From: Betaproteobacteria bacterium
GTDB taxonomy: Bacteria; Pseudomonadota; Gammaproteobacteria; Burkholderiales; Thiobacillaceae
Assembly: GCA_016219425.1 (NCBI GenBank)
Contig: JACRNB010000002.1
Span: forward strand, 62,001-126,000
Length of the DNA stretch: 64,000 bases
Reading direction: 5' to 3'
Made by a program: the position numbers and the translations under genes. A model generated the notes under the pieces. That model made no database searches. It was not told the DNA's origin and worked only from the letters and a program-made list of their open reading frames with translations. This document shows, piece after piece, positions 6,175 to 29,271 of this stretch. The stretch's first letter is position 1. Each line of letters starts with the position of its first letter.

Positions 6175-7470
6175 TTACGCCTTCACCTTGAACCCGTCGG
6201 CGTAGGCCTTCGGGTTCTTGCCGTCCCACACCACGCCGTCGATGAGCTTGGAGGTACGCATCTCCGACTTCGGCAGGGGGGTCTTGGTCATGGCGGCGGC
6301 TTCCTTGTAGAGGGCGATCTGGTTCACCTTTTTGGCCACGCCCAGGTAGTCCGGGTGGTCCTTCAACAGCCCCCAGCGCTTGTGCTGGGTCAGGAACCAC
6401 ATGCCGTCGGACAGGTAGGGGAAGTTCACCGCGCCGTCGTTGAAGAACTTCATGTAGTTGGCATCTTTCCACTTCTTGCCGATGCCGTTGTCATAGTTGC
6501 CTTGCATGCGGTCCTCGATCACGTCGTACTCGGTGTTCACATAGGACTTGCCGGCGATGATCTTGCCCACCTCGGGCCGGTTGGTCATGACGTCGATGTA
6601 CTTGGAGGCGTCCAGGATGGCGGCCACCATAGCCCGTGCGGTGTTGGGATACTTCTGCACGAATTCCAGGGTGGTTCCCAGCACCTTTTCCGGGTGGTCG
6701 GTCCAGATGTCCTGGCTGGTGGCGGCGGTGAAGCCGATCTTGTCGTAGATGGCGCGGGCGTTCCAGGGCTCGCCGACGCAGTAGCCGTCCATCTTGTCCA
6801 CGCGCATGTTGGCTACCATCTGGGGCGGCGGCACGGTGATCACCTTCACGTCCTGGAACGGGTTGATGCCATACGTCCCCATCCAGTAATACAGCCACAT
6901 GGCGTGGGTGCCGGTGGGGAAGGTCTGGGCGAAGGTCCATTCCTTGGGCTCCGCCTTCACCAGCTTCGCCAGGCCGGGACCATCGGTGACGCCCTTGGCC
7001 TTCAACTGGTTGTTCAGGGTGATGGCCTGGCCGTTATTGTTCAGATTCATCAGCACCGCCATGTCCTTCTTGGGACCGCCCACGCCCAGTTGCAGGCCGT
7101 AGATCAGGCCGTACAGCACATGGGCCGCGTCCAGTTCGCCGTTGGAAAGCTTGTCGCGCACGCCGGCCCAGGAGGCCTCCTTGCTGGGGATGATCTTGAT
7201 GCCGTACTTCTTGTCGAAGCCCTTCTCGGCGGCGATGGCCACACTGGCGCAGTCCGTCAGGGGGATGAAGCCGATCTTCACTTCGAGCTTCTCGGGCGCG
7301 TCGGAGCCGGCGGCCCAGGCGCCGCTGCGCACACCAGGGGGCACCAGGGACATGAGGGCGGCGGCGGCGGAGAGGGTGGCGGTCTTTTTCATGAAATCAC
7401 GCTTGCTGGTGTCGATTTCTAGGGGGCTGACAAGGAGGTTGTCGGCGGGCTGATCCACGGGGTTACGCAT
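6175..7470 (-). CDS. nrtA: Nitrate ABC transporter, substrate-binding protein (NrtA family)
   Basis: The 431-residue protein belongs to the NrtA/CmpA/NasF family of periplasmic nitrate or bicarbonate binding proteins (segment KIGFIPLTDCASVAIAAEKG near the start of the mature part). The N-terminus reads SKRDFMKK followed by a hydrophobic alanine-rich stretch ending in AWA, which resembles a Tat signal with KR in place of RR. It is therefore probably exported and is not the cytoplasmic sensor NasS of the same fold. The start codon lies just after a sigma-54 promoter, a small hairpin and an intrinsic terminator, so expression should need antitermination. It is the first gene of nrtABD. Confidence 0.9.
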   Translation of the reverse strand: MRNPVDQPADNLLVSPLEIDTSKRDFMKKTATLSAAAALMSLVPPGVRSGAWAAGSDAPEKLEVKIGFIPLTDCASVAIAAEKGFDKKYGIKIIPSKEASWAGVRDKLSNGELDAAHVLYGLIYGLQLGVGGPKKDMAVLMNLNNNGQAITLNNQLKAKGVTDGPGLAKLVKAEPKEWTFAQTFPTGTHAMWLYYWMGTYGINPFQDVKVITVPPPQMVANMRVDKMDGYCVGEPWNARAIYDKIGFTAATSQDIWTDHPEKVLGTTLEFVQKYPNTARAMVAAILDASKYIDVMTNRPEVGKIIAGKSYVNTEYDVIEDRMQGNYDNGIGKKWKDANYMKFFNDGAVNFPYLSDGMWFLTQHKRWGLLKDHPDYLGVAKKVNQIALYKEAAAMTKTPLPKSEMRTSKLIDGVVWDGKNPKAYADGFKVKA

Positions 7471-7482
7471 TTTGTGAACTCC

Positions 7483-7526
7483 AAAAAAAGACGGCGTCGG
7501 CCCCCAGGGGGGCGGACGCCGTTGTC
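7483..7526 (-). terminator. Leader terminator (attenuator) upstream of nrtA
   Basis: On the minus strand the leader reads ACGGCGTC, a C/G-rich loop, GACGCCGT and then seven T residues, ending 13 bases before the nrtA start. A stem with a U-run inside a 5' leader is an attenuator. The same stem (GGCGTC/GACGCC family, preceded by GGACAAC) precedes nirB, and a close variant precedes narK. Relief by the ANTAR protein NasT encoded at 19772-20362 is inferred. Confidence 0.88.
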
Positions 7527-7555
7527 CAAGATGAATCTACGAAGGAGTGACTCGG

Positions 7556-7575
7556 CTGGCGCGCCTTTGCACCAG
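7556..7575 (-). promoter_or_regulatory. Leader hairpin of nrtA, candidate ANTAR (NasT) target
   Basis: The minus-strand RNA forms CUGGUGC / GCGCCAG (one G-U pair) around the six-base loop AAAGGC. Known ANTAR target hairpins have six-base loops with A at position 1 and G at position 4, and this loop fits. It begins about where transcription from the sigma-54 promoter should start. The second hairpin expected of the two-hairpin ANTAR motif is not convincing to me. Confidence 0.55.
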
Positions 7576-7588
7576 TCGCTAGGCCTAC

Positions 7589-7604
7589 AGCAACAGCCGT
7601 GCCA
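7589..7604 (-). promoter_or_regulatory. Sigma-54 promoter of nrtABD
   Basis: The minus strand reads TGGCACGGCTGTTGCT, a perfect match to TGGCACR-N4-TTGCW, with the expected start about 107 bases before the nrtA ATG. Sigma-54 dependence implies an enhancer-binding activator, most likely NtrC for nitrogen genes; this is inferred. Confidence 0.9.
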
Positions 7605-8386: not shown

Positions 8387-10081
8387 TTACCGTCCCGCCA
8401 GCAGCAGGAACAGCAGCAACAGGTTGAACACGATGGAAATTACCGCCACGCCCTGCCAGAAGCGCAACGGGTCGCGCGCGGCCAGGGGCGTGGCGCGGGG
8501 CCGGGCGAGGCGGCTGGCCTCCCCCCGCTCCAGGGCCAGCAGAAATTCTTCGGCGGTCTCGAAACGCTCTCCCGGCTCCCGCGCGCAGGCCTTGAGCAGC
8601 GCGTTCTCCAGCCAGCCGGGGATGTCCGGGCGCACCCGCGTGGGCGGAACCGGGTCGCCGAAGCGGGGACGCTGGAAGGCCTCGATCTCGCCGTAGGGGT
8701 ACTTGCGGGTGAGCAGGTGGTACAGCGTCACCCCGACGGCGTACAGGTCGGTCTGTTGATCGGCCTGGGCGCTGCCGGAGATCAGTTCCGGGGCCATGTA
8801 GCTGGGGGTGCCCGGAATCTCGTCCGCCTTGCCCTTCGGGCAGCCGGGACAGCTCGCCACCCCCAGGTCAAGGATGCGCAGCTTGCCGTCCGGCGCCAGG
8901 AGCAGGTTGGCGGGCTTGATGTCGCGGTGAGCCACATCCAGCCGGTGCAGGGCCGAAAGCCCCTTGAGCAGGCGGATGCCCAGGGATACCGCCTCCAGCG
9001 CGCCGAAATGCCGCCCGTTCTCCAGCAAGGCCTGCAAGGTCTGGCCGGCATGCCACTCCATGGCGAAATAGAGATGCTCCCGCGCGGGCAGCGGCAGGAT
9101 CTGGGCGAAGTAATGGGACTGCACCCGCTTGGCCGTCCATTCCTCCATGAGCAGACGGTCGGCCAGCTCGGTGTCGCCTTCCAGCCGGGGTTGCAGGGTC
9201 TTGAGTACGCAGGCGCGCCCGCTCTGGGCGTCATGGGCGCGGTAGAGCAGGGTCTCGCGCGAATCGTGCAGCACCTCGTCGATCACGAAGCCTTCCAGAT
9301 GCGCGCCGGGACGGAGCCTGCCGGGCAGCGGCAGATGGCGCTGTTCCAGCCAGTTGCCGGCGTCATCCTCCTGCCCCAGCGCCTCCACCCGCACCACCAG
9401 GGCGCTGGCGTTGTCGCCGCCGCCCTGGCGCAGGGCCTCCGCCACCAGGCCGCGCGCCGCCGCCTCGGGGGCGTCATACAACTGGAGCAAACGATGCATC
9501 TCCACCAGCCCCAGGGGTTCCCAGACGCCGTCGCATACCAGGGCGAACACGTCGCCCGCCGCCAGATCGCCCTCGGCGTGGTCCAGGGTCAGATGGGTAT
9601 CCAGGCCCACGGCGCGTTTGAGCACATGCTCCATGCCGGGTTGCTCCCAGGTGTGATCCTGGGTCAGGCACTCCAGAGACTCGCCGCGCAGGCGGTAGAT
9701 GCGGGTATCGCCGACATGGGCAAAGTGCCAGCGTCGTCCGCGCAGCACCAGGGTGGAGAGGGTGCAGGCCATGCCTCCCGGCGCGCGGCGCGATACCGCC
9801 TGACCGTTGAGCCAGCGGTTCAGGCTTTGCAGGATGTGGCTCAGGGAATGGGCTATCTCCCAGGTCTCGGGCGTGGCGTAGTAATCCGAGAGCAGGTTGC
9901 GCACCGTGCTCTCCGCCGCCTCGCGCCCGTGGGAGCCGCCGGAGACGCCATCGGCCAGCGCGGCGATGTAGCCCTTGACCGCCGCCACGGCGGGCTCCGG
10001 CGTGACGAAGCCGCCGAAGTCCTCGTTGGCGGGGCGCGGCCCCTTGTCGGTGGCGTGGCCGAAGGCGAGTTGCAGGCTCAT
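8387..10081 (-). CDS. Bifunctional PP2C phosphatase / Ser-Thr protein kinase with C-terminal membrane anchor
   Basis: Residues about 1-240 are a PP2C-type phosphatase with metal-site motifs ALADGVSGG and GDTRIYRL and a late GGGDNAS. Residues about 265-530 are a Hanks-type kinase with the ATP-site lysine in CVLKTL, catalytic loop HRDIKPANLL, DLG in place of DFG, and MAPE. A hydrophobic segment ending in LLLLFLLLAGR anchors the C-terminus. The order is narK - this gene (9-base gap) - CBS protein. A related phosphatase-kinase lies beside nirB and the nitrate transporter in Pseudomonas aeruginosa, so an association with nitrate assimilation is known. Its substrate is not known; NarK or a regulator is a reasonable guess. 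Confidence 0.92.
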   Translation of the reverse strand: MSLQLAFGHATDKGPRPANEDFGGFVTPEPAVAAVKGYIAALADGVSGGSHGREAAESTVRNLLSDYYATPETWEIAHSLSHILQSLNRWLNGQAVSRRAPGGMACTLSTLVLRGRRWHFAHVGDTRIYRLRGESLECLTQDHTWEQPGMEHVLKRAVGLDTHLTLDHAEGDLAAGDVFALVCDGVWEPLGLVEMHRLLQLYDAPEAAARGLVAEALRQGGGDNASALVVRVEALGQEDDAGNWLEQRHLPLPGRLRPGAHLEGFVIDEVLHDSRETLLYRAHDAQSGRACVLKTLQPRLEGDTELADRLLMEEWTAKRVQSHYFAQILPLPAREHLYFAMEWHAGQTLQALLENGRHFGALEAVSLGIRLLKGLSALHRLDVAHRDIKPANLLLAPDGKLRILDLGVASCPGCPKGKADEIPGTPSYMAPELISGSAQADQQTDLYAVGVTLYHLLTRKYPYGEIEAFQRPRFGDPVPPTRVRPDIPGWLENALLKACAREPGERFETAEEFLLALERGEASRLARPRATPLAARDPLRFWQGVAVISIVFNLLLLFLLLAGR

Positions 10082-10090
10082 GGGCGGGGC

Positions 10091-11296
10091 TTATACCTTG
10101 GCCAGGGTGGCTGCGCCCCAGGTGGTGCGCCAGCGGGTCTTTACCGAGGTCAGCCCTGCCAGGGCGACCAGACACAGGCCCGCGAAGATCAAGAGGCCGA
10201 TCTGGTAATCGCCGGTCTGCCCCTTGAGATAGCCCAGGCTGGAGGCGAGGTAGAAGCCGCCGATGCCGCCGGCCATGCCAACCAGGCCGGTCATGACGCC
10301 GATCTCCTTGCGGAAGCGTTGCGGCACCAGTTGGAACACCGCGCCGTTGCCCACCCCCAGGCTGCCCATGCCGAGAATGAACAGACCCAGCGCCAGCCAG
10401 GGACTGTCGGCGCCGAAGCTGACGATGGTGATGAACAGGGCGGCCAGGGCATACATGGCGAGCAGGGTGCGGATGCCGCCGATGCGGTCGGCCAGGTAAC
10501 CGCCGATGGGGCGCACCAGGGAGCCGGCAAACACGCAGGCGGCGGTGAAATAGCCCGCCTCCACCGGTTTCATGCCGTATTGGTCATTGAAATAGATGGT
10601 GAGACTGGAGGCCAGGCCGACAAAGCCGCCGAAGGTGCAGAAGTAAAAGAACATGAACCACCAGGCGTCGCGGTCCTTGAGCACGTTCAGATATTGGGAG
10701 AGCGATTTGGGCGGAGGGCAGTCGGGCGCGTCCTTGGCGAAGACCAGATACACCAGGCAGGCCAGTCCCAGGGGGATCAAGGCCATGCCGAACACATTGC
10801 CCCAGCCAAAGGCGACGGCCAGCCCCGGCGCCACCAGGGCGGCGATGACCGTGCCCGAGTTGCCCGCGCCGGCGATACCCAGCGCCGTGCCCTGGTGTTG
10901 CGGCGGATACCAGCGCGAGGCCAGGGGCAGGGCGACGGCAAAGGCCGCTCCGGCAAAACCCAGAAGTACGCCCAGCATCAGCGCCTCGCGGAAGTCATGG
11001 ATGCCGCCCAGCCAGGCCCAGGCCATGCCGCCGATGACGATGATCTGGCCGATCAGCCCCGCCTTCTTGGGTTTCAGATGGTCCACCAGGATGCCCATCA
11101 CCACCCGCAGCAGCCCTCCGGCCAGCACCGGCGTGGCCACCATCAGCCCCTTCTGCGCCGGGCTGAGGTGCAGGTCGGCGGCGATCTGCACCGCCAGCGG
11201 CCCCAGGAGCACCCAGGTCATGAAGGCGATGTCGAAATACAGGAATGCCGAGAGCAGCGTCGGGGTGTGGCCGGATTGCCAGAAACTCTTGTCCAT
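10091..11296 (-). CDS. narK: Nitrate/nitrite MFS transporter (NarK/NasA family)
   Basis: The 401-residue major-facilitator protein has about twelve membrane segments and the glycine-rich nitrate signature regions of the NarK family (GIAGAGNSGTVIA and the later GLVGMAGGIGGF). It should import nitrate, probably by proton symport, next to the ABC importer in this window. The ATG at 11296 (MDKSFW) is chosen because the in-frame extension to 11422 would run through the leader terminator and the promoter-proximal leader. First gene of narK - phosphatase/kinase - CBS, controlled by a sigma-54 promoter and an attenuator. Confidence 0.92.
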   Translation of the reverse strand: MDKSFWQSGHTPTLLSAFLYFDIAFMTWVLLGPLAVQIAADLHLSPAQKGLMVATPVLAGGLLRVVMGILVDHLKPKKAGLIGQIIVIGGMAWAWLGGIHDFREALMLGVLLGFAGAAFAVALPLASRWYPPQHQGTALGIAGAGNSGTVIAALVAPGLAVAFGWGNVFGMALIPLGLACLVYLVFAKDAPDCPPPKSLSQYLNVLKDRDAWWFMFFYFCTFGGFVGLASSLTIYFNDQYGMKPVEAGYFTAACVFAGSLVRPIGGYLADRIGGIRTLLAMYALAALFITIVSFGADSPWLALGLFILGMGSLGVGNGAVFQLVPQRFRKEIGVMTGLVGMAGGIGGFYLASSLGYLKGQTGDYQIGLLIFAGLCLVALAGLTSVKTRWRTTWGAATLAKV

Positions 11297-11339: not shown

Positions 11340-11384
11340 AAAAAAAATGGCGTCGGCCCCACAAGGGGGCGGACGCCGGTGTCC
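11340..11384 (-). terminator. Leader terminator (attenuator) upstream of narK
   Basis: On the minus strand GGCGTC, a C-rich part, a GGGG part and GACGCC are followed by ATTTTTTT, 44 bases before the narK ATG. The stem and preceding bases resemble the nrtA and nirB leaders, pointing to shared control by antitermination. Confidence 0.87.
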
Positions 11385-11442: not shown

Positions 11443-11458
11443 AGCAATGCCCGTGCCA
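11443..11458 (-). promoter_or_regulatory. Sigma-54 promoter of narK operon
   Basis: The minus strand reads TGGCACGGGCATTGCT, a perfect sigma-54 consensus. An NtrC-like half-site TGCACC lies about 130 bases upstream, near 11588. Confidence 0.9.
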
Positions 11459-15579: not shown

Positions 15580-17054
15580 GGCTGCTGCCCTCCCAGCGCC
15601 GCCATCAGTTGCTGCTTGAGGGCATTGCGGGTTTCGGCAACTTCGTCCATGAGCCGGCGGTATTGGGCGAGCAGTTCGTCGGGATCGTGGCTGACCTGTT
15701 CGCCGACATGGGGGTTCTTGATGTCGAGGTTGTAGTTGCGCGCGACGATGTCGGCGACCGGCACTTTCCAGGCCTGTTCGGTCTGCACACGCGCTGCAAA
15801 GCCGTCCGCCTCGTCGCCCCACCAGGCGATCTCGGTTTCAAATTCCTCGAAGCGCATGGGCTTGGTCTTGTTGTAGCTCTTCACGCCTTCCGGGTAGGGG
15901 TGTTCGTAGTACCAGACGTGCTCGGTGGGCTGGCCCTTGGTGAAGAACAGCAGGTTGGTCTTGATGCCGGTGTAGGGCGCGAACACGCCGTTGGGCAGGC
16001 GCACGAGGGTGTGCAGGTTGCACTCTTCCAGCAGGATTTGCTTGAGGCGGGTCTTCATGCCTTCGCCGAACAGGAAGCCGTCGGGCAGCACCACGGCGGC
16101 GCGGCCTTGATCCTTGAGCAGCTTGATGACCAGGGCCATGAACAGGTCCGCCGTTTCGCGGGTGCGCAGGTGGGCGGGGAAGTTGTTTTCGATGCCGTCT
16201 TCTTCCATGCCGCCGAAGGGCGGGTTGGTGATGATGACGTTGACGCGGTCGGCGTTGCCGTAGTCCTTGTAGGGGCGGCTCAGGGTGTTGTCGTGCCGGA
16301 TGTGGGTGGGGGTGTCGATGCCGTGCAGGATCATGTTGGTGACGGCCAGCATGTGGGGCAGCGCCTTCTTCTCATAGCCCCGGATGGAGTTGACCAGCGC
16401 CTCTTCGTCTTCGCGGGTTTTGACGTACTGCGCGCGCTTGTGGTCGATGGCGCAGGTAAGGAAGCCGCCGGTGCCGCAGGCGGGGTCGAGTACGGTTTCT
16501 TCCAGCTTGGGATCGACTCGGTTGACGATGAAACGGGTGACGGCGCGCGGGGTGTAGAACTCGCCCGCGTTGCCGGCGCTTTGCAGGTCGCGCAGGATTT
16601 GTTCGTAGATGCTGCCGAAGGTGTGGCGGTCGCCGCTGTTGTTGAAGTCGATCTCGCAAATCTTGTTGATGACCTGGCGCATCAGCGTGCCGGACTTCAT
16701 GTAGTTGTAGGCGTCTTCGAACACGCTGCGCACCACCTGGGCGCGCCTGCCCTGGGCGCCCGTGGCGGGCAGCCGTTCCTTCAGGTAGGGGAACAGTTGC
16801 ACGTTGACGAAGTCGGCCAGTTCTTCGCCGGTCATGCCTTCCGGGTTGGCGGCCCATGCGCGCCAACGCAAGTGATTGGGCAGCGGGGATTTGTAGTCGT
16901 CTTCCAGCAGTTCCAGTTCGGCTTCGCGGTCATCGAAGATTTTCAGGAAAAACATCCAGACCAGTTGGCTGATGCGCTGGGCGTCGCCATCGACGCCGAC
17001 ATCCTTGCGCATGATGTCCTGGATGGATTTGATGGCGCCGCTGACGTTACTCAT
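15576..17054 (-). CDS. hsdM: Type I restriction-modification DNA methyltransferase HsdM
   Basis: The 492-residue N6-adenine methyltransferase has an HsdM_N helical domain (about 1-130), the S-adenosylmethionine motif DPACGTGGF and the catalytic NPPF (VIITNPPFGG). It methylates the site chosen by HsdS and protects the host. Its start overlaps the hsdR stop (ATGA), and its stop overlaps the RhuM-Fic TTG start. Confidence 0.96.
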   Translation of the reverse strand: MSNVSGAIKSIQDIMRKDVGVDGDAQRISQLVWMFFLKIFDDREAELELLEDDYKSPLPNHLRWRAWAANPEGMTGEELADFVNVQLFPYLKERLPATGAQGRRAQVVRSVFEDAYNYMKSGTLMRQVINKICEIDFNNSGDRHTFGSIYEQILRDLQSAGNAGEFYTPRAVTRFIVNRVDPKLEETVLDPACGTGGFLTCAIDHKRAQYVKTREDEEALVNSIRGYEKKALPHMLAVTNMILHGIDTPTHIRHDNTLSRPYKDYGNADRVNVIITNPPFGGMEEDGIENNFPAHLRTRETADLFMALVIKLLKDQGRAAVVLPDGFLFGEGMKTRLKQILLEECNLHTLVRLPNGVFAPYTGIKTNLLFFTKGQPTEHVWYYEHPYPEGVKSYNKTKPMRFEEFETEIAWWGDEADGFAARVQTEQAWKVPVADIVARNYNLDIKNPHVGEQVSHDPDELLAQYRRLMDEVAETRNALKQQLMAALGGQQP

Positions 17055-19405: not shown

Positions 19406-19596
19406 CAAGTGAATCCAAAATTGAATGCGCGCTGACTGGCTGTGAATCCTAACTGTTATTGGTGGCGTCAACTTACCGGCATTCTTTGGCCATTCTGCCA
19501 AGTGGGTCTGGCCATCAGCGCTGACCGACCTTCTGCCAGAAGGCTGCTTCGTCAGTTGAGCGATCGCTGTTGCATCCCGTGTGGTCATGAAGGGGA

Positions 19597-19771: not shown

Positions 19772-20362
19772 CTACTTCTTCGCCATCTCCATCACCACCC
19801 GCGCCACGTCGGCGATGCGTTTCCGGTGGGTCATGGCCTCGCGGCGCAGGGCCTGGTAGGCGGCTTCCTCGGAGAGTTTTTCCACCTTCATCAGGTAGCG
19901 TTTGGCCTGTTCCACCACCTTGTGGTCCTGCAATTCCTGGCGCGCGCGCAGGGCGTCCTCGCGCAGGAGTTGCCAGGTTTCGAAGCGCACTTGCGCCAGT
20001 TGCAGCAGGGGCTGGATGCGTTCTGATTCCAGGCCGTTCACCACATAGCAGGCCACCCCGGCGGAGACGGCGGAACGCATGGCCTCCTGGGAATCATCCT
20101 GGCTGAACATGACGATGGGGCGCGGGGTCTTTTCGCTCATCACCACGATTTGTTCCAGGGTGTCGCGGCTGGGGGAGTCGGTGTCCATGATCACCGCGTC
20201 CGGGCCGATCTCCTCCACCCAGCCGGGCAGGTCGATGGCCCGATCCAGGCGACCGATCAAACGATGTTGCGGGGCGGCCTGGGCCAGGGCTTCCATGAGG
20301 TCATCCAGGCGTCGGCGCGACTGGCTGATGACCAAAATGTTGAGGGTTGGGCTGTCCCGCAT
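19772..20362 (-). CDS. nasT: ANTAR-domain antiterminator NasT
   Basis: The 196-residue protein has a receiver-like N-terminus (about 1-120) in which the acceptor region reads AVIMDTDSPSRDTLE, as in NasT. A coiled stretch and a C-terminal ANTAR domain (about 135-196, VEQAKRYLMKVEKLSEEAAY) follow. ANTAR proteins bind leader RNA hairpins and prevent intrinsic termination; NasT does this for nitrate-assimilation genes. Three such leaders occur in this window (nrtA, narK, nirB). The gene starts 6 bases after the Cache-PAS sensor. The usual partner NasS is not present in the window. Confidence 0.93.
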   Translation of the reverse strand: MRDSPTLNILVISQSRRRLDDLMEALAQAAPQHRLIGRLDRAIDLPGWVEEIGPDAVIMDTDSPSRDTLEQIVVMSEKTPRPIVMFSQDDSQEAMRSAVSAGVACYVVNGLESERIQPLLQLAQVRFETWQLLREDALRARQELQDHKVVEQAKRYLMKVEKLSEEAAYQALRREAMTHRKRIADVARVVMEMAKK

Positions 20363-20368
20363 CGTTAC

Positions 20369-21832
20369 TCAGTGTTTTCGCGCCGAAAGGTCCGCCACGA
20401 AGGCGTCCACATACTGGCGGCCCTTTTCGGTGAAGGGGCTGAGGCTGACCTCCACCGGGAAGATGCTGCCGTCCTTGCGCCGTCCGTGAAGCTCGCGGCC
20501 TTCGCCCATGGGCTTGGCCACCGGGGCCTGCATGTAGGCCGTGCGCTCGCCCACATGCTGGGAATGGTTGTCGGTGGGGATCAGCACTTCCAGCGGCTGG
20601 TCGATCAACTCGTCCGGCGCGTAGCCAAACATGCGTTCCAGCGCCGGGTTGACGAGCACGATGCGACCGGCGTCATCCACCACCAGCAGGCCGTTGACGT
20701 TGGCCTGCACCACCAGGCGGAAGCGCTCCTTGGCCTCGGCCATGTGCTGGGCCGCTTCGGCTTCGACATGGGCCTGGGCCGCCTCCACCATGGCGCGGGT
20801 GCGCTCCATCAGGCTGCGCGAGAGCCAGGCGGCGAGAACGCCGAACAGGGCCAGCAGGGTGAGGGCGATGGTCCCCACGGTGCTCCAGGTGTGACTGCGA
20901 ATCTCCAGCAGGCGGCTGACGGGCAGGCGCGAGATGGCCAGCCACGCCGGTACGCCCACCACGCCGCGGCTGTCTTCCACCTTGAGAGGGTAGATCGTGC
21001 TCCAGGTCCACATGCCGTCGGCCAGTTCGACCTGTCCGGAGGGCATCGCCGTGATCGCCTTCCAGGCCTCCGGGTGCCGTGTTTGCAGGGTTTCCTTGCG
21101 TCCGAACATGAAGCCCCAGGCCTCCGACGGGGTCGGGCTGGAGATCCAGAAACCGTCCGTGTTGACCAGCATGGCGTGTTCCCTGGCCTCACCGAAGGCC
21201 TCGGTGAAGGCGTCCAGCAGGCGTTGCGCGTTCACATTGAGCATCAGCATGCCTCGCACGCCGCCTTCCGGGGCATGCAGGGGCGCGGCCACGCGCAGCA
21301 TCGGCCTGTGGGGGACGTCCACCTTGTCGTGTTCAATATTGAGGTCCAGCCGGGAGACGTAGATTTCGCCGGGTTTCAGCTTGAGCGCATCGCTCACGTA
21401 GTACCTGCCGGAGAGGTTCTCAAGCGCGGCCTCCGCCACCCGGACGCCGACGCCTTCCACCTGGTTGACCCGCACCTGCTCCATACCGTCGGCGCCGATC
21501 CAGCGCAGCTTGTCGTACATGGGGTAATAGGCGATGAGGGTGCGGAAGGCGTTGGCCAGGGAATCGGCGGCCTCCTTGGCGGGAGAGGAGCGCAGCGGGT
21601 TGGATTCCGCCAGCTTCTTGAGGTGGCGCAGCGGGCGTTCCAGTTCCCCGTCCAGGCGGCGCACGCCCTGCACCACGTTGCCGATCTCGCTGCTGCGCAC
21701 CAGGTCCAGTTCATCCGTGATGCGCTCTTGCCCTACATACCAGGCGCCGCCCAGGATGAGCAGGGCGACGGGGATGAACAGCATGAAGAACATGCGTACC
21801 GGATGTTCGCTTATGGGGTGCTGTGCGCTCAT
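20369..21832 (-). CDS. Membrane Cache-PAS sensor protein without output domain
   Basis: The 487-residue protein has a membrane segment at about 14-34, a periplasmic Cache-type double sensor region (about 40-330), a second membrane segment (about 335-355), a short coiled linker and one cytoplasmic PAS domain (about 375-487, with LVVDDAGRIVLVNPALERMFGY). It stops directly after the PAS domain, so no kinase, cyclase or chemotaxis domain follows. The ATG at 21832 has AGAGGG upstream; an ATG at 21901 lacks one. It lies immediately upstream of nasT with a 6-base gap and probably passes a signal to it. The ligand is unknown; nitrate is possible from context. Confidence 0.85.
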   Translation of the reverse strand: MSAQHPISEHPVRMFFMLFIPVALLILGGAWYVGQERITDELDLVRSSEIGNVVQGVRRLDGELERPLRHLKKLAESNPLRSSPAKEAADSLANAFRTLIAYYPMYDKLRWIGADGMEQVRVNQVEGVGVRVAEAALENLSGRYYVSDALKLKPGEIYVSRLDLNIEHDKVDVPHRPMLRVAAPLHAPEGGVRGMLMLNVNAQRLLDAFTEAFGEAREHAMLVNTDGFWISSPTPSEAWGFMFGRKETLQTRHPEAWKAITAMPSGQVELADGMWTWSTIYPLKVEDSRGVVGVPAWLAISRLPVSRLLEIRSHTWSTVGTIALTLLALFGVLAAWLSRSLMERTRAMVEAAQAHVEAEAAQHMAEAKERFRLVVQANVNGLLVVDDAGRIVLVNPALERMFGYAPDELIDQPLEVLIPTDNHSQHVGERTAYMQAPVAKPMGEGRELHGRRKDGSIFPVEVSLSPFTEKGRQYVDAFVADLSARKH

Positions 21833-21939: not shown

Positions 21940-23712
21940 TCAGTGTGTGTCCGGCACGACTCCCAGTTGCGGCATGTCCGCCAGACCCACCTCGCGGGCG
22001 TGTTCCACAAAGCCCTTGTTACGCCAGAAGAACGCCCCCGGCAGGGTGGTGGGGATCACCAGCACATAGAACAGGGCGCGGCCCAGGATGGCGGCGCTGA
22101 GGGCGGTGAGGGTCAGGGGGGCGAACAGGGCCGCCGCGCCGGTCAGCGCCAGCAGCGCGGCCAGGATCAGGGAGAGACCCAGCAGGCCGTTGCGCAGCAG
22201 GTAGGGCTGGCCGTAGCGGGTGGTCTGCTCGTAGTGGGAGGCGGCCCCCTCGTCGCCGCGGGCCTTCAGGTCGCGGGCATGGGCCAGCAGGCCGAGGCCT
22301 TCCAGGGTGAAGCCTGCCGCCATGAGACCGCCCAGGGTGGCGGCCAGCTCCGGCGTCATGCCGCCAGGGGCCATACCCAACAGCCCCAGCAGCCCCAGCA
22401 GCAGGCCGCCCAGACCCAGGCCCGTGCCGACGAACGAGGCCCCCGTCTGCCAGTGGTCCCAGAAGGGCCGCGCCTTGATGCGGTAGAGCTTGTACATATA
22501 GAAACCGCCGAATCCCAGGCCCAGCAGGGCGGCGGCTGCGGCGGCAGGTTGCAGCAGGGCCGCCAGCGGAAAGCCGGGGAACAGGGTGAGGAAGGTGACG
22601 CCCCCCAGGCCGCCGAAGAACAGGGACACCCCGGCGATCTCCCGGCTCACCGGCGACAGCCGCCAGTTGTTGAAGCCGCGATAGAAGCGCAGGGGCTTGC
22701 CCAGGTGCAGGTTGAGTCTGGCCAGACCGAAGCCCATGAGCGCCATCAGGGCCAGCAGCACCGGCAGGGTGTTCAGGGCCGAGGCCAGGGTCAGCAGCAT
22801 CAGAAAGGCCCCCATCACCGCTTGCACCGAGAGGGTGAAGGCGATGTGGGCGTTCTCGTGCGAGGTGAGCAGCTTCTTCAGGTTCCACTGGCGGTTGAAG
22901 CCGTACTTGGGGTCCAGTACCGGGGTGAATTTCCCGCTGCCATCGTCGCGGTGGTACTTCAGCGGCGTGCTGTCCATCCGCACCATGTCGCGCTGGGTGC
23001 TGCGGGTCTGCTGGAAGCGGATGTTGGGGTGGGTGATGTCGGTGCGGGGGAAGCCGGGGATCTCGGTCTTGGCCTGGCTGCGGCCCTCGGGGATGTTCTC
23101 CACCACGCCGAAGTCCAGGGCCTTGCCCAGGCAAGCGGAGACGCAGGCGGGTTTGAGGCCGACTTCCAGGCGATCCACGCACATATTGCATTTGCTCACC
23201 TGGCCCTTGATCGGGTCCAGTTGCGGCGCGTTGTAGGGGCAGACCCAGGTGCAGTAGCCGCAGCCGAAGCAGATGTCCGGGTCTTGCAGCACCGCGCCGT
23301 ATTCCGCGAACTTGGTATAGGCGCGGGTCGGGCAGCCTTTCAGACACACCGGGTCGTCGCAGTGGTTGCAGGCCATGGAGATGTTGAGGCGCTGCATGTT
23401 GGGATAGACGCCGCCTTCCACGAAGCCCACGGAACGGAAGGCGATGTGCGCCGGGTTGTCGTTCTTCTCGGAACAGGCCGCCTCGCAGGCGTGGCAGGCG
23501 ATGCAGTTGTCGGCGTTGAAGAAGAAGCCGTGCTGTTTGTAGCGGTTGGGGTTCTGCGACGGGCAGGCCTCGCCGTTGATGACGAAGGCCTGGGCGCGCA
23601 GGGTGTGGCCCGCCGGCACGGTGTCGATGGGCGTGCCGTAGCGGTTGACGGTCTGGCTCACCGGGTCGTGCAGGCGGGCGTAGTCGGGTTCGTTGGGGCG
23701 TACTTGAAACAT
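21940..23712 (-). CDS. Fused DmsB-like ferredoxin and DmsC-like membrane anchor
   Basis: Residues about 1-250 contain four cysteine clusters typical of a four-[4Fe-4S] ferredoxin subunit (CIACHACEAAC, CNHCDDPVCLKGC, CFGCGYCTWVC, CNMC..CVSAC). Residues about 290-590 hold eight or so hydrophobic helices like DmsC/NrfD quinol-oxidising anchors. DmsB and DmsC are normally separate proteins. The ATG at 23712 (MFQVRP) has AGAGG 7 bases upstream; ATG 23718 is too close to that site. It follows nasA on the same strand, so it could feed electrons from quinol to the nitrate reductase. No signal peptide is seen, so the ferredoxin part should face the cytoplasm. Confidence 0.85.
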   Translation of the reverse strand: MFQVRPNEPDYARLHDPVSQTVNRYGTPIDTVPAGHTLRAQAFVINGEACPSQNPNRYKQHGFFFNADNCIACHACEAACSEKNDNPAHIAFRSVGFVEGGVYPNMQRLNISMACNHCDDPVCLKGCPTRAYTKFAEYGAVLQDPDICFGCGYCTWVCPYNAPQLDPIKGQVSKCNMCVDRLEVGLKPACVSACLGKALDFGVVENIPEGRSQAKTEIPGFPRTDITHPNIRFQQTRSTQRDMVRMDSTPLKYHRDDGSGKFTPVLDPKYGFNRQWNLKKLLTSHENAHIAFTLSVQAVMGAFLMLLTLASALNTLPVLLALMALMGFGLARLNLHLGKPLRFYRGFNNWRLSPVSREIAGVSLFFGGLGGVTFLTLFPGFPLAALLQPAAAAAALLGLGFGGFYMYKLYRIKARPFWDHWQTGASFVGTGLGLGGLLLGLLGLLGMAPGGMTPELAATLGGLMAAGFTLEGLGLLAHARDLKARGDEGAASHYEQTTRYGQPYLLRNGLLGLSLILAALLALTGAAALFAPLTLTALSAAILGRALFYVLVIPTTLPGAFFWRNKGFVEHAREVGLADMPQLGVVPDTH

Positions 23713-23731
23713 ATCCATACCTCTCGATTTG

Positions 23732-23845
23732 CCCCCTCTCCCACCGGGAGAGGGTTGGGGTGAGGGAGCGGCGCTGGATTCGCCGTTGCCGGTGAGGAGA
23801 CGTGGCTCCCTCACCCCCGGCCCCTCCCCCGGAGGGGAGGGGAGA
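23732..23845. repeat. Inverted pair of GC-rich REP-like repeats between nasA and the DmsBC fusion
   Basis: Same paired element as at 6056-6173: a CTCCC..GGGAGAGGG-type palindrome with GGGGTGAGGGAGC arms facing a second copy. Confidence 0.85.
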
Positions 23846-23850
23846 ACAAC

Positions 23851-26055
23851 TCAAAACTTCCGCATTTCCATGCTCAATTTCGCCGCCGCGGCCTGGTCCG
23901 CGATGCGCTCGATGCGCACCGCTGACTGTTTGTAGGCGGGCTGGCGCGAGTGCGGGTCGAGCAGGCCCAAGGTCAGGCGGTTGGCGCAGTCGTGGAAGTG
24001 GAAGGGCAGGAACACCATGTTCTTGGGCACCCGCTGGGTGGGCTGGGCCATGGCCACGGCGTCGCCGCGGCGGGATACCAGACGCACGTACTCGCCGCGC
24101 TGGATGCCCAGGTCCAAAGCCAGGTCCGGGTTGATCTCGATGAAGGGAATCGGGCTGAACTTGTTGTTGTTGCCGATCTTTCCGGTCTTGGTGCGCCCGT
24201 GCCAGTGCTCGATCAGCCGCCCGGTGTTGAGCCAGATGGGGAACAACTCATCCGGCACTTCGTTGTTGTCGATGAAGGGCAGGGGGATGAGCTTGGCGCG
24301 GCCATCCGGGTAGCTGAACGCGCCGTCCACGGTGTAGAGGCGCTTGCCGCCCTTGGGGGGCGCTTCGCCGCGTTCCACCTGGGCGGCGGTGTAGGGCCAT
24401 TGCACGCCCCGGTTCTGTTCCAGCAGGGCGTGGTTCATGCCGGAGATGTCCGCCAGCCGGCCTTTGGACAGTTCGCCCATCTCCAGAAAGATGTCGGCGG
24501 CCTTTTCCGGGAAGTGCACCCGGCCATCCCGGTTGAAGCGTTCCGCCACCCGGTTGAACACCCAGAGGTCGGGCTTGGCCTCGCCGGGGGGCGTGGCGAT
24601 GGGGTTGATGAGGTTGATGCGGCGTTCGGTGTTGGTCATCACGCCTTCCTTCTCCGCCCAGGTGCCGGCGGGCAGGTAGACGTGGGCGTACTGGGCGCTC
24701 TCGGTGTCCTGGTAGCAGTCCTGCACGCAGCAGAACTCCAGTTGTTCCATGGCCTTGCGGATGCGCGCGGTGTTGGGCAGGGACGACATGGGGTTGGTGG
24801 CGATCAGCCACATGCCCTTGATCTGGCCCGCCTCCATGGCCTGGTAGATGTCGGTCTGGTACATGCCGCGCTTCTTCGGGAAGAACTCCGGGTCCACGTT
24901 CCAGAACTTGGCCACCTCGGCGCGGTGCTCCGGGTTTTCCAACACCCGGTAGTTGGGCAGGCCGGAGCAGGACGACCACTCGCGCGTGCCCATGGCGTTG
25001 CACTGGCCGGTGATGGAAAGCGAGGTGCCGCCGGGTTTTCCAATATTCCCGGTGATGAGGGCCAGGTTGTTGATGCCCACCACGCCGTCGGAGCCGTGGG
25101 TGGATTGGTTGATGCCCATGGTCCAGATCTGCATCGCCGCTTTCGCTTTTGCAAACGTGCGGGCGACGACGCGGATGGTGTCTTCATCAATGCCGCAGAT
25201 CTTGGAGGCGGTGACCGGGTCGTACTTTTCCACTTCGGCGCGCAGGGCCTCGACGCCGGTGGTGTTGGCGTCGATGTAGGCCTGGTCGTGCAGGCCTTCC
25301 TTGAAGATGACGTGCATCAGGGCGTTTTGCAGCACCACGTCGGCGCCCGGCGTGATGGCGAGGTGGATGTGGGCGTTCTGGGCCAGCATGGTGACGCGCG
25401 GGTCCACCACGATGAGCGGGAAGCCGGTCCGCTCCTGCGCCTCTTTCATGCGCCAGTAGATGATGGGGTGCTGTTCCGGCAGGTTGGAGCCCCAGGCGAT
25501 GAGGCAGCCGGTGTGTTCGAAGTCTTCGTAGCAGCCGGGCGGGCCGTCGGAGCCGAAGCTGCGCTTGTAGCCGGACACGGCGGACGACATGCACAGCGTG
25601 GTGTTGCCGTCGTAGTTGTTGGTGCCGATGAGGCCCCGGGTGAGCTTGCCCAGGGTATAGAACTCCTCGGTGAGCATCTGGCCGGTGGAGATGATGGCGA
25701 AGGAGTCCGGGCCGTGCTTCGCCTGGATGCGGCGGATCTCGTCGTGGAGCTTGTCGAGGGCGGTGTCCCAGGTCGCATCGCGCCAGGCGTCATGCCAGCG
25801 CTCGCGCATCAGGGGCTTGAGGCCGCGCCCGGCGGAGCTGAACAGTTCGTGCTCGAACAGGCCCTTGAGGCACAGCTTGCCCCGGTTCACGTCAGCATCC
25901 GCCACGCCCCGGGAGGAGACGGCATGGCCTTCCGCGTTGAGACCCACTTCGATGGAGCAGCCGGTGGAGCAGTAGCCGCAGGCGGCGTATTTCCACTCCA
26001 CCACGCCCTTGTCGGCGATCTTGATGGGGTTCTTCTTGCTACGTCCGAACAGCAT
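23851..26055 (-). CDS. nasA: Assimilatory nitrate reductase catalytic subunit (NasA/NarB type)
   Basis: The 734-residue molybdopterin-guanine-dinucleotide enzyme has an N-terminal [4Fe-4S] site C26-x2-C29-x3-C33-x28-C62. The probable molybdenum ligand cysteine lies in NTTLCMSSAV, and a C-terminal molydop-binding domain follows. It reduces nitrate to nitrite in the cytoplasm; no Tat signal is present. It has no C-terminal BFD or flavin module, so it needs an external electron donor, for which the DmsBC-like fusion directly downstream is the obvious candidate. Fourth-from-last in nirB-nirD-nasA-dmsBC-sensor-nasT. Confidence 0.93.
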   Translation of the reverse strand: MLFGRSKKNPIKIADKGVVEWKYAACGYCSTGCSIEVGLNAEGHAVSSRGVADADVNRGKLCLKGLFEHELFSSAGRGLKPLMRERWHDAWRDATWDTALDKLHDEIRRIQAKHGPDSFAIISTGQMLTEEFYTLGKLTRGLIGTNNYDGNTTLCMSSAVSGYKRSFGSDGPPGCYEDFEHTGCLIAWGSNLPEQHPIIYWRMKEAQERTGFPLIVVDPRVTMLAQNAHIHLAITPGADVVLQNALMHVIFKEGLHDQAYIDANTTGVEALRAEVEKYDPVTASKICGIDEDTIRVVARTFAKAKAAMQIWTMGINQSTHGSDGVVGINNLALITGNIGKPGGTSLSITGQCNAMGTREWSSCSGLPNYRVLENPEHRAEVAKFWNVDPEFFPKKRGMYQTDIYQAMEAGQIKGMWLIATNPMSSLPNTARIRKAMEQLEFCCVQDCYQDTESAQYAHVYLPAGTWAEKEGVMTNTERRINLINPIATPPGEAKPDLWVFNRVAERFNRDGRVHFPEKAADIFLEMGELSKGRLADISGMNHALLEQNRGVQWPYTAAQVERGEAPPKGGKRLYTVDGAFSYPDGRAKLIPLPFIDNNEVPDELFPIWLNTGRLIEHWHGRTKTGKIGNNNKFSPIPFIEINPDLALDLGIQRGEYVRLVSRRGDAVAMAQPTQRVPKNMVFLPFHFHDCANRLTLGLLDPHSRQPAYKQSAVRIERIADQAAAAKLSMEMRKF

Positions 26056-26262: not shown

Positions 26263-26586
26263 TCACGCCAACCTCAAAAATACCTGCCCACCCTCCACCT
26301 TGACGGCGTAGGTGCGGGCGCAGCCCTTGTCCGGCAGCACGGCCTCGCCGGTGACAAGGTCGATCTTGAAGCCGTGCAGCGGGCAGGTGACCAGGCCGCC
26401 GTGGACGATGCCCTCCGACAGCGGGCCGCCGCGATGCGGGCACTTGTCCTTGACGGCGTAGATCCCGTCGGTTGCGGTGCGGAACAGGGCGATGCGATGT
26501 ACGGCGTCGTCGTGGGCCAGTTCCACCACCCGCGCGCCCTGGCGGGGGATGTCTTCGAACTTGGTGATTTCAATCCAGTCGTTCAT
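26263..26586 (-). CDS. nirD: Nitrite reductase small subunit NirD (Rieske type)
   Basis: The 107-residue Rieske-like protein has the cluster motifs CPHRGG and CPLHGF (C-x-H and C-x2-H). It partners NirB in the cytoplasmic reduction of nitrite to ammonium. The ATG at 26586 (MNDWIE) has AAGGA 6 bases upstream; earlier in-frame ATGs sit on or before that site. It lies 124 bases behind nirB with a repeat pair in the gap. Confidence 0.93.
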   Translation of the reverse strand: MNDWIEITKFEDIPRQGARVVELAHDDAVHRIALFRTATDGIYAVKDKCPHRGGPLSEGIVHGGLVTCPLHGFKIDLVTGEAVLPDKGCARTYAVKVEGGQVFLRLA

Positions 26587-26608
26587 TTCCATTCCTTCTC
26601 TATTCAAG

Positions 26609-26710: not shown

Positions 26711-29155
26711 TCAGGCCGCGATCCGTATCGGCGTGAACTCATGGGACGCGACGCCTTCCGCCCGTTCCTTCCAGGGGTCGATCTGGGCGTAGCGCTGGCC
26801 GACCTTGAAGCGCTCGAACAACTCGGCGCGGCCTGCGGCGTCGTCCACCACACGGGCCTTGATGTGAGCCAGGCCCACCCGCTCCACCCAGGGCGCGGTG
26901 CGTTCCAGGTAATGCGCCTCTTCGCGGTAGAGCTGGGCGAAGGCGCCGGTGTATTCCATGACCTGCGCCTCGGTTTCCACCTTGGTCAGCAGGTCGGTGA
27001 CGCGCACCTTGATGCCGCCGTTGCCGCCCACATGCAGCTCGTACCCCGAATCCACACACACCACGCCGAAGTCCTTGATCGTCGCCTCGGCGCAGTTGCG
27101 CGGGCAGCCGGAGACGGCGAGCTTGTACTTGTGCGGCATCCAGGAACCCCAGGTGAGCTGCTCCAGCTTCACCCCCAGTCCGGTGGAATCCTGCGTGCCG
27201 AAGCGGCACCACTTCGAGCCGACGCAGGTCTTCACCGTGCGCAGGGCCTTGCCGTAGGCGTGGCCGGAGACAAAACCGGCATCCGACAGGTCTTTCCACA
27301 TCGCCGGCAGGTCGGTCTTCTTCACGCCGAACAGGTCGATGCGCTGGCCGCCCGTGACCTTGACCTCGGGCACCTTGTATTTCTCCGCCACGTCGGCGAT
27401 GGCGCGCAATTCCTTGGGATTGGTGAGGCCGCCCCACATGCGCGGCACCACGGAGAAGGAGCCGTCCTTCTGGATGTTGCCGTGGGCGCGTTCGTTGATG
27501 TAGCGCGACTGGGCATCGTCCTGGTATTCCGCCGGCCAGCGCGCCAGCAGGTAGTAGTTGAGCGCCGGGCGGCAGGTGGCGCAGCCGTCCGGGGTGGTCC
27601 ACTCCAGGAAGCGGAACACGGCGTCCATGGATTTCAGGCCCTGATCCTTGATCGCGGCGATCACGTCGTCATGGCTGTGGTCGGTGCACTTGCACAGGGG
27701 CTTCTTGCTGGGCGCGGCGGAGTAGTTGCCGCCCACGGTATGGGCCAGCACCGCCTCCACCAGGCCGGTGCAGGAGCCGCAGGAGGCGGAGGCCTTGGTA
27801 TGGGCGCGCACCTCGTCCAGGGTAAACAGCTTCAAGTCGCGGATGGCGGCGACGATGGTCCCCTTGCATACGCCGTTGCAGCCGCACACCTCTGCCGTGT
27901 CCGGCAGGCTGGCCACCCGCTCGGCGGGGCCGTGGCCCGAGTCGCCCAGGTGTTGCTGGCCGAACAGGATGCTCTTGCGGAACTGGGAGACGTCCGTGCC
28001 TTCCCGCAGCAGGTCGAAATACCAGGCCCCGTCCAACGTGTCGCCATAGATGCAGGCGCCCACCAGCTTGTTGTCCTTGAGCACCAGTTTCTTGTAGGCG
28101 CCGGTGGCGGCGTCGGAATAGACCAGGGATTCGGTGCCCGGCGCACCCATGAAGTCCCCGGCGGAGAACAGGTCGATGCCCGTCACCTTGAGCTTGGTCG
28201 AGGTCATGGAGCCCTGGTAGCGGCCCACGCCATGCTCCGCCAGGTGGTTGGCGCATACCTTGGCCTGCTCGAACAGCGGCGCCACCAGACCGTAGGCGAT
28301 GCCGCGATGGCTGACGCACTCGCCCACGGCGTAGATGCGCGGGTCGTAGGTCTGCATGGTGTCGTTCACCACCAGACCGCGCTGGCAGTACAGCCCGGCG
28401 GATTCCGCCAGGACGGTGTTGGGGCGGATGCCCACGGCCATGACCACCAGGTCGGCGGGGATCTCGTCGCCGTCCTTGAACTTGACCGTGCAGACTCTGC
28501 CCGACTTGCCGCGTTCCAGTTCCGCCGTCTGCTTCCTCAGCAGGAACTTCAACCCCTTGGCTTCCAGGCTCTGTTGCAGCAGGCGCGCAGCAGGCTCGTC
28601 GAGCTGGCGCTCCAGCAGCCAGTCGCCCAGGTGCACCACGGTAACGTCCATGCCGCGATGCTTCAGACCGTTGGCGGCTTCGAGGCCTAGCAGGCCACCG
28701 CCGATCACCACCGCATTCTTGTAACGACCCGCCGTGGCGATCATGGTATCCACGTCGGCCACGTCGCGGAAACCCACCACACCAGGCAAGTCGTGCCCCG
28801 GAACCGGCAGCACGAACGATTTCGAACCCGTGGCGATCAGCAGGCGGTCGTACTCGGCGCGACTGCCGTCGTCGGCCTCGACGAAGCGATTCTTGCGGTC
28901 AATCTTCACCACCCGCTTGCCGGTGTGCAGGGTGATACCGTTGTCTGCGTACCACTCCCAGGTGTTGAGGATGATCTGTTCCACCGTCTGCTCGCCCGCC
29001 AGCACCGGGGACAGCATGATGCGGTTGTAGTTGGGGTGCGGCTCGTCGCCGAACACGGTGATGTCATACATCTCGGGAGCCGCCTTCAGCAGCTCTTCCA
29101 GGGTGCGCATGCCGGCCATGCCGTTGCCCACCAGTACCAGTTTCATCTTTGCCAT
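26711..29155 (-). CDS. nirB: NAD(P)H nitrite reductase large subunit NirB
   Basis: The 814-residue enzyme has an N-terminal pyridine-nucleotide/FAD module (VGNGMAG), a BFD-type [2Fe-2S] segment (VCGCNGVCKG, about residue 420) and sulfite/nitrite reductase ferredoxin and siroheme domains. The cluster cysteines are CVGSKWC and CPRNC (C-x5-C and C-x3-C). It reduces nitrite to ammonium with electrons from NAD(P)H. It is the first gene of the long nas transcript, behind a sigma-54 promoter and an attenuator. Confidence 0.96.
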   Translation of the reverse strand: MAKMKLVLVGNGMAGMRTLEELLKAAPEMYDITVFGDEPHPNYNRIMLSPVLAGEQTVEQIILNTWEWYADNGITLHTGKRVVKIDRKNRFVEADDGSRAEYDRLLIATGSKSFVLPVPGHDLPGVVGFRDVADVDTMIATAGRYKNAVVIGGGLLGLEAANGLKHRGMDVTVVHLGDWLLERQLDEPAARLLQQSLEAKGLKFLLRKQTAELERGKSGRVCTVKFKDGDEIPADLVVMAVGIRPNTVLAESAGLYCQRGLVVNDTMQTYDPRIYAVGECVSHRGIAYGLVAPLFEQAKVCANHLAEHGVGRYQGSMTSTKLKVTGIDLFSAGDFMGAPGTESLVYSDAATGAYKKLVLKDNKLVGACIYGDTLDGAWYFDLLREGTDVSQFRKSILFGQQHLGDSGHGPAERVASLPDTAEVCGCNGVCKGTIVAAIRDLKLFTLDEVRAHTKASASCGSCTGLVEAVLAHTVGGNYSAAPSKKPLCKCTDHSHDDVIAAIKDQGLKSMDAVFRFLEWTTPDGCATCRPALNYYLLARWPAEYQDDAQSRYINERAHGNIQKDGSFSVVPRMWGGLTNPKELRAIADVAEKYKVPEVKVTGGQRIDLFGVKKTDLPAMWKDLSDAGFVSGHAYGKALRTVKTCVGSKWCRFGTQDSTGLGVKLEQLTWGSWMPHKYKLAVSGCPRNCAEATIKDFGVVCVDSGYELHVGGNGGIKVRVTDLLTKVETEAQVMEYTGAFAQLYREEAHYLERTAPWVERVGLAHIKARVVDDAAGRAELFERFKVGQRYAQIDPWKERAEGVASHEFTPIRIAA

Positions 29156-29174: not shown

Positions 29175-29220
29175 AAAAAAAACGGCGTCCGACCCCCGAA
29201 GGGGTGGGACGCCGTTGTCC
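29175..29220 (-). terminator. Leader terminator (attenuator) upstream of nirB
   Basis: On the minus strand ACGGCGTCC, a loop, GGACGCCGT and a run of eight T end about 20 bases before the nirB ATG. GGACAACGGCGTCC at its 5' side matches the nrtA leader. Confidence 0.88.
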
Positions 29221-29229
29221 AAGATCACT

Positions 29230-29245
29230 CAGGCGATTAAGCCTG
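29230..29245 (-). promoter_or_regulatory. Small leader hairpin of nirB
   Basis: CAGGC-UUAAUC-GCCUG forms a five-pair stem with a six-base loop at the expected transcript start. The loop lacks A1/G4, so it departs from the ANTAR rule although its place and size agree. Confidence 0.45.
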
Positions 29246-29255
29246 GGTCTTGCCC

Positions 29256-29271
29256 AGCAACCTTCGTGCCA
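29256..29271 (-). promoter_or_regulatory. Sigma-54 promoter of nirB operon
   Basis: The minus strand reads TGGCACGAAGGTTGCT, a perfect sigma-54 consensus, matching the spacing to the terminator seen for nrtA. Confidence 0.9.

Follow-up and report, generated by a model that had tools for sequence, protein, structure and literature searches.

Among the described systems closest to the locus reported here is NasS-NasT of Paracoccus denitrificans, in which NasS is a relative of the nitrate-transport protein NrtA without an export leader; the nas genes of this bacterium are expressed constitutively when NasS is missing (PMC3795266). NasT belongs to the ANTAR proteins, which prefer an RNA hairpin with A in the first and G in the fourth position of a hexaloop and with a C:G closing pair (PMC7496416). 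In what follows, the genes, leaders and candidate sensors of a betaproteobacterial nas cluster are compared with these and related systems.

The stretch of DNA analyzed (64,000 nucleotides, hereafter the window) comes from contig C9; the genome to which it belongs comprises 3.1 Mb and has a listed completeness of 100%. All nas genes and leader elements given below lie on the minus strand. In the direction of reading, the first gene row comprises nirB (26711..29155), nirD (26263..26607), a nasC-like gene for a molybdopterin protein resembling nitrate reductases (23851..26055), a gene for a 4Fe-4S ferredoxin fused to a DmsC-type membrane anchor (21940..23814), a gene for a Cache-TM-PAS protein of 487 amino acids (20369..21832) and nasT (19772..20362), which encodes a pseudo-receiver and ANTAR protein of 196 amino acids. 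A second row begins with narK (10091..11296, named by eye), for which residue 43 in the listed open reading frame was taken as the start because alignments begin at residues 40-42; it is followed by a gene for a fused PP2C phosphatase and Ser/Thr kinase (8387..10081). The nrtA gene lies at 6175..7470. Immediately behind nasT, the nas cluster is interrupted by a type I restriction-modification cassette (12899-19588; hsdR, hsdM and hsdS, named by eye), which includes a RhuM/Fic-like gene, also recognized by eye, at 14605-15822; the GC3 of hsdS is 0.57, far below that of the nas genes.

The initial annotation of this locus described a membrane protein with a Cache region, a PAS domain and no output domain, encoded six bases upstream of nasT, and this description holds. 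The stop codon of the Cache-PAS gene and the ATG of nasT are six bases apart on the same strand, and the upstream product contains a PF21623 sensor domain (residues 82-280; 73.8 bits, cut-off 27), a dCache_1 match below its cut-off, hydrophobic segments at approximately residues 9-35 and 315-342, and a PAS domain at residues 369-473, C-terminal of which the profile search found no output domain. No clear ribosome site was seen by eye before nasT; the short gap and the missing site fit coupled translation, which evolution could exploit, and they count against the reading preferred below. A consensus scan found no separate sigma70 promoter upstream of the Cache-PAS gene. The possibility of a split or truncated kinase gene was rejected, since nasT follows directly after the stop codon and the relatives of the protein end at a like boundary.

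In NasT, the ANTAR domain is clearly recognized (PF03861, 53.3 bits, cut-off 27.3), and the receiver gives a weak match of 20 bits, below the cut-off. Alignment of the receiver, with positions assigned by eye, shows an Asp at the acceptor-like position together with the absence of the acidic pair and the Lys. NasT thus lacks the set of acidic pair, Asp and Lys that is typical of phosphorylated ANTAR response regulators of the EutV type, so that control by a kinase is not expected. Two more ANTAR genes are present elsewhere in the genome, and both encode receiver-ANTAR proteins, the receiver part being judged by eye. At E 1e-50, NasT of the window's type was found in 7 of the 399 genomes of an order-level sample, all of them in the window's own family.

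Three leaders of the window, those of nirB, narK and nrtA, share one anatomy, in which an ANTAR-type hairpin (P2) with A in the first and G in the fourth position of the hexaloop overlaps a terminator and a sigma54 promoter-like site lies upstream. These sites were called with the sigma54 (-24/-12) consensus. Before nirB, the promoter-like site TGGCACG-N4-TTGCT (29256..29271) is followed by a first hairpin, P1 (CAGGC-UUAAUC-GCCUG, 29230..29245), whose loop is non-canonical for ANTAR proteins, by P2 (GGAC-AACGGC-GUCC, 29207..29220), which has the preferred loop positions and C:G closing pair, and by an intrinsic terminator (29175..29216) that overlaps P2 and ends in eight T. The narK leader (11340..11384) contains P2 as GGAC-ACCGGC-GUCC (11371-11384) with an overlapping terminator, downstream of a promoter-like site at 11443..11458. 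The nrtA leader (7483..7575), downstream of a site at 7589..7604, has P2 with the same sequence as that of nirB (GGAC-AACGGC-GUCC, 7514-7527), an overlapping terminator and a T-run, and of the three leaders it alone has a canonical P1 loop (AAAGGC), P1 of narK being unclear.

A scan of the window for P2 with up to two mismatches gave 4 matches against 1.15 expected, a number reached by 3 of 100 shuffles; the nirB and nrtA hairpins are exact, and the narK hairpin has one mismatch that leaves the AxxG loop intact. The sigma54 scan, with up to one mismatch, gave 5 sites against 0.94 expected, which none of 100 shuffles reached, and the sites at 29256, 11443 and 7589 are exact. A pattern search of the whole genome that allowed at most 60 bases of gap returned only the nirB and narK leaders, with none in the reversed control; the gap in the nrtA leader is 62 bases and therefore exceeds the limit. 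None of the three leaders reached the Rfam gathering score. Below this threshold they resemble the Pseudomonas P11 RNA, and two resemble the narK RNA motif, the nrtA leader resembling both. Compared with shuffled versions, the P1-P2 segment of nirB alone shows a better fold (z -2.2), the values for nrtA and narK being 0.07 and -0.36.

Conservation was followed around relatives of NasT, in 20 regions taken from 19 genomes; NasT is 71-84% identical to that of the window in 19 of these regions and 60% identical in one (G045). The regions, several of them cut by contig ends, were compared with 16 window proteins by best match at E 1e-10, a procedure to which genes without a window counterpart are invisible. 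Of the 16 regions holding nirB, 15 encode a product with 75-90% identity to that of the window, and one encodes a product with 69%. The nirB start is present in 13 of the 20 regions, from 12 genomes, and missing in the other 7; the 13 together with the window form 14 distinct upstream regions with 12 distinct leader segments. In all 14, the site TGGCA[CT]G-N4-TTGC precedes nirB and is accompanied by P2 with A first and G fourth and by a T-run, which is interrupted once in L084 and L086; the loop varies among AACGGC, AAAGGC and AATGGC. One region (L083) has two leaders with sigma54 site and ANTAR hairpin in tandem before nirB, the sites being 672 bases apart. P2 also precedes nrtA in all 11 relative regions holding the nrtA start, 10 of them with a sigma54-like site. 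On the other hand, P2 was found before narK in none of the three relatives with the narK start (L065, L074 and L081), and the hold of NasT on narK is therefore not general. In L081 narK lies right behind the ferredoxin gene, and in L065 and L074 the row narK-kinase-nasT follows a sigma54-like site without an ANTAR hairpin, unlike narK of the window.

The same regions show how other genes of the cluster vary. The order of the nasC-like gene and the ferredoxin/DmsC fusion inside the nas operon (21940-26055) suggests a quinol-linked nitrate reductase; this type is common to 2 of the 20 regions (L077 and L081), a longer nasC with 33-38% identity is present in 14, and nasC was not seen in 4. The PP2C-Ser/Thr kinase fusion that follows narK in the window (8387-10081) is the nearest recognized gene before nasT in 4 of the 20 regions, and is a possible regulator of nitrate assimilation.

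No gene for a leaderless NrtA-like NasS was found in the genome of the window. A search for nasS elsewhere, which the initial annotation had named in advance as a check, returned a single gene of PF13379, the family of NasS and NrtA, and this gene is the leader-bearing nrtA; a hidden NasS was accordingly rejected. The product of nrtA begins with SKRDFMKK followed by a hydrophobic stretch, which looks like a Tat-type leader of the KR variant. The statement that NrtA looks exported is thus confirmed, while the further statement that it cannot serve as NasS is too strong, because Tat substrates fold in the cytoplasm prior to export. A NIT-type nitrate sensor wired to NasT was also rejected, as the one NIT domain of the genome belongs to a protein judged by eye to be a chemoreceptor. 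PilJ domains, which resemble the nitrate-binding part of NarX, gave six matches in four frames of the genome, the three larger frames being 647-715 amino acids long. The small frame is the one whose sequence was read: this product of locus L135 (5484-6317), adjoining a cytochrome c-like gene, consists of an export leader and two PilJ domains and nothing else.

Within the genus, PF13379 genes are present in 22 of 23 genomes. The N-termini were read for 27 of 30 loci, which include all matches above 100 bits; L115, L123 and L124 (70-79 bits), without a match to the NrtA query, were left out, and most matches under approximately 90 bits fall outside this reading. An export leader was seen in 25 of the 27 loci, and the motif KRDF[LM] in the leader of 18, including nrtA of genomes without NasS. 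The only two leaderless loci (L117 in G025 and L122 in G024) both follow nrtB-nrtC, in genomes whose NasT is divergent, with about 40% identity. None of the 16 genus genomes with NasT of the window's type has a leaderless strong PF13379 match, though three of the 16 are less than 90% complete, and incomplete relatives could hide NasS genes. Judging from these genomes, NasT without NasS appears to be the usual state in the genus.

The Cache-PAS protein belongs to a family of its own. In a family-level search at E 2e-94 or better, it was found in 16 of 117 genomes, namely that of the window and 15 others with 49-56% identity, of which G035 has the gene in fragments. Among the 14 full relatives that were aligned, 13 have the arrangement Cache-PAS-PAS in open frames of 618-668 amino acids, the second PAS domain being clearly divergent in L018 and L019, and one (L017, 496 amino acids) has a single PAS domain. 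All 14 stop at the last PAS domain or within about ten residues of it, so that the missing output is a trait of the family. Neither the window protein nor any of the three family members scanned (L006, L017 and L018) matches HisKA or HATPase. More distant homologs carry both domains after the same Cache and PAS domains in five of five cases scanned; one of them (L125) is the only match besides the window at E 1e-75 in a class-level search of 369 sampled genomes. By its domain content, the protein is a sensor-only relative of the N-terminal half of histidine kinases. No NasT homolog was found in the flanks (at most 1.5 kb) of the relatives' loci L006-L034, and common neighbors are confined to three small sets (L006/L011, L013/L016 and L015/L019/L020). 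One genome (G013) has three copies of the Cache-PAS-PAS protein, two on contig C22 and one on C63, and the copy whose flanks are seen (L007) has no nasT there. A search for viral contigs found none.

The first PAS domain aligns with FixL over nearly its whole length (E 7.5e-15), with the heme His of the FixL/DosP type and the Arg of the GxGR motif, to which a functional role is assigned in FixL, in register. Both residues, the former being His426 of the F-alpha helix, are invariant in 15 of 15 sequences. In a survey of PAS domains, this His is given as the main determinant of heme binding for the FixL/DosP cluster (PMC10468136). The PAS domain of the window protein probably binds heme, as a sensor of O2 or redox state. 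If the protein itself has any activity, its targets are probably other PAS proteins, and a homologous protein of contig C11 (795-amino-acid frame, 31% identity over the Cache part) may be its partner; the Cache-PAS protein may also do nothing in this genome.

The position of the Cache-PAS gene beside nasT is not conserved. In none of the 20 nasT regions from 19 genomes, some cut by contig ends, was the Cache-PAS protein a best match; among recognized genes, the one closest upstream of nasT encodes NasC in 14 regions, the Ser/Thr kinase in 4, and the ferredoxin/DmsC fusion and NirD in 1 region each. In one of these regions (L077 of G018), nasC and the ferredoxin/DmsC fusion are 91% and 78% identical to those of the window, and nasT begins approximately 100-140 bases after the ferredoxin gene, its start codon being uncertain. 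As the Cache-PAS gene is absent from the nasT regions of relatives, it looks inserted in the window's lineage. Base composition lends no support to a recent gain, since the GC and GC3 (0.87) of the gene equal those of its neighbors, and the insertion is thus read from gene order alone. Moreover, a close Cache-PAS protein is absent in 7 of the 16 genus genomes with NasT of the window's type (G011, G012, G019, G020, G027, G030 and G032), and regions from five of these (G011, G019, G027, G030 and G032) have the same nirB leader. Against the reading as an inserted gene whose product is not a partner of NasT stands the more than expected co-occurrence of the two proteins: among 117 family genomes, 12 have both, 12 NasT only, 4 Cache-PAS only and 89 neither (Fisher p 4e-7, not corrected for descent), the corresponding numbers within the genus being 9, 7, 1 and 6 (p 0.09, likewise not corrected for descent).

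Based on these results, it is likely that NasT acts as antiterminator for three sigma54 operons without NasS, and that the Cache-PAS gene is an insertion of this lineage whose product is probably not the sensor of NasT. From the leader anatomy we infer the functional steps as follows. The operons under NasT would be nirB-nirD-nasC-ferredoxin/DmsC-Cache-PAS-nasT, narK-kinase and nrtABC. In each leader, the 3' arm of the hairpin with the AxxGxx loop doubles as the 5' arm of the terminator; since this arm is shared, bound NasT would block termination. One of the terminators under NasT control precedes the operon that contains nasT itself, which would further result in positive feedback on NasT production. 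NasT of this clade would be either active whenever it is made, with sigma54 and NtrC as the gate, or restrained by a factor other than NasS. The Cache-PAS gene, an insertion special to the window's lineage as far as seen, would probably be expressed with the operon. Because related betaproteobacteria keep NasT and its RNA targets and seem to be without NasS, what, if anything, signals the presence of nitrate to NasT becomes a testable question.

Three accounts of this signal were weighed. The most plausible of them, if somewhat short of an even chance, is that NasT works without a sensor and is constitutively active, so that NtrC and sigma54 under nitrogen limitation form the only gate, as in the Paracoccus nasS mutant. 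No NasS was found with this NasT type, sigma54-like sites precede all three window leaders, and the constitutive expression of P. denitrificans nas genes without NasS (PMC3795266) offers a precedent. However, the nirB terminator and ANTAR hairpin are strictly kept, which is hard to explain without switching unless they act in feedback; if there is no sensor, their conservation would serve feedback only. It is also conceivable, though rather unlikely, that NrtA itself plays the part of NasS, folding in the cytoplasm and sensing nitrate for NasT before Tat export. Since NasS is a leaderless NrtA relative (PMC3795266), the NrtA precursor is the candidate with the best precedent. With KR in place of RR, the leader could make export slower, so that a pool remains in the cytoplasm, the KRDF[LM] leader recurs as described above, and nrtA is the next recognized gene after nasT in L075, L076, L082 and L084; but no interface is known, and KR leaders may export normally. 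Were this account true, a protein of nitrate transport would have a second role as a sensor in the cytoplasm, prior to its export.

We consider it improbable that the Cache-PAS protein was recruited as the partner of NasT, its cytoplasmic PAS domain holding or releasing the pseudo-receiver according to a periplasmic ligand, heme-bound O2 or both. The six-base gap in one gene row, the lack of a NasS gene in the genome, the receiver without acidic pair and Lys, which lets control by protein contact be expected, the family without output of its own and its co-occurrence with NasT speak for such a role. Against this, linkage to nasT is not conserved, family members elsewhere have no nasT in their flanks of up to 1.5 kb, and NasT is kept in the seven genus genomes that have neither a leaderless strong PF13379 match nor a close Cache-PAS protein, five of them with the same nirB leader. 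The fuller scenario, that a kinase-less Cache receptor with a FixL-type heme PAS took over the antiterminator by contact, replacing a lost nitrate sensor and adding an outside ligand and oxygen, is more improbable still; if true, nitrate assimilation would be wired to both of these signals. The Cache-PAS protein is in fact the least conserved candidate sensor for NasT. The words "paired with" and "instead of", with which the initial annotation had introduced the Cache-PAS protein, are interpretation, and a replacement of NasS is not supported: NasS is missing across the clade, the Cache-PAS gene was found beside nasT only here, and 7 of 16 genus genomes do without it. In this strain, a contact of NasT with the Cache-PAS protein is possible but unlikely. 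In the literature searched, no description of a Cache-PAS partner of NasT was recognized.

The locus shares features with several known systems. Like AmiR of the Pseudomonas AmiC-AmiR system (PMC3795266, PMC7496416), NasT of the window is a pseudo-receiver ANTAR protein, but no gene for a soluble ligand-binding partner adjoins nasT. As in EutW-EutV, a sensor kinase with an ANTAR response regulator (PMC7496416), a sensor gene stands with a gene for an ANTAR protein, whereas the Cache-PAS protein lacks a kinase and NasT lacks the receiver residues for phosphorylation. The window PAS domain aligns with heme PAS domains of FixL and DosP, with the heme His and GxGR Arg in register; in contrast to these, the protein has no kinase, cyclase or phosphodiesterase, and its heme binding is a prediction. 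With the Cache-PAS histidine kinases (PF21623) it shares the Cache and PAS arrangement at 33-41% identity, except that HisKA and HATPase are absent. The NasS-NasT system of P. denitrificans (PMC3795266) has in common with the window a NasT with receiver-like and ANTAR parts, a nas leader RNA and an NrtA-type protein nearby. Different from that system, no leaderless NasS was found here, nasT lies downstream of its own terminator, and there are three sigma54 leaders; what is new in the window is this set of leaders before nirB, narK and nrtA, each combining a sigma54 promoter-like site, an ANTAR hairpin and an overlapping terminator.
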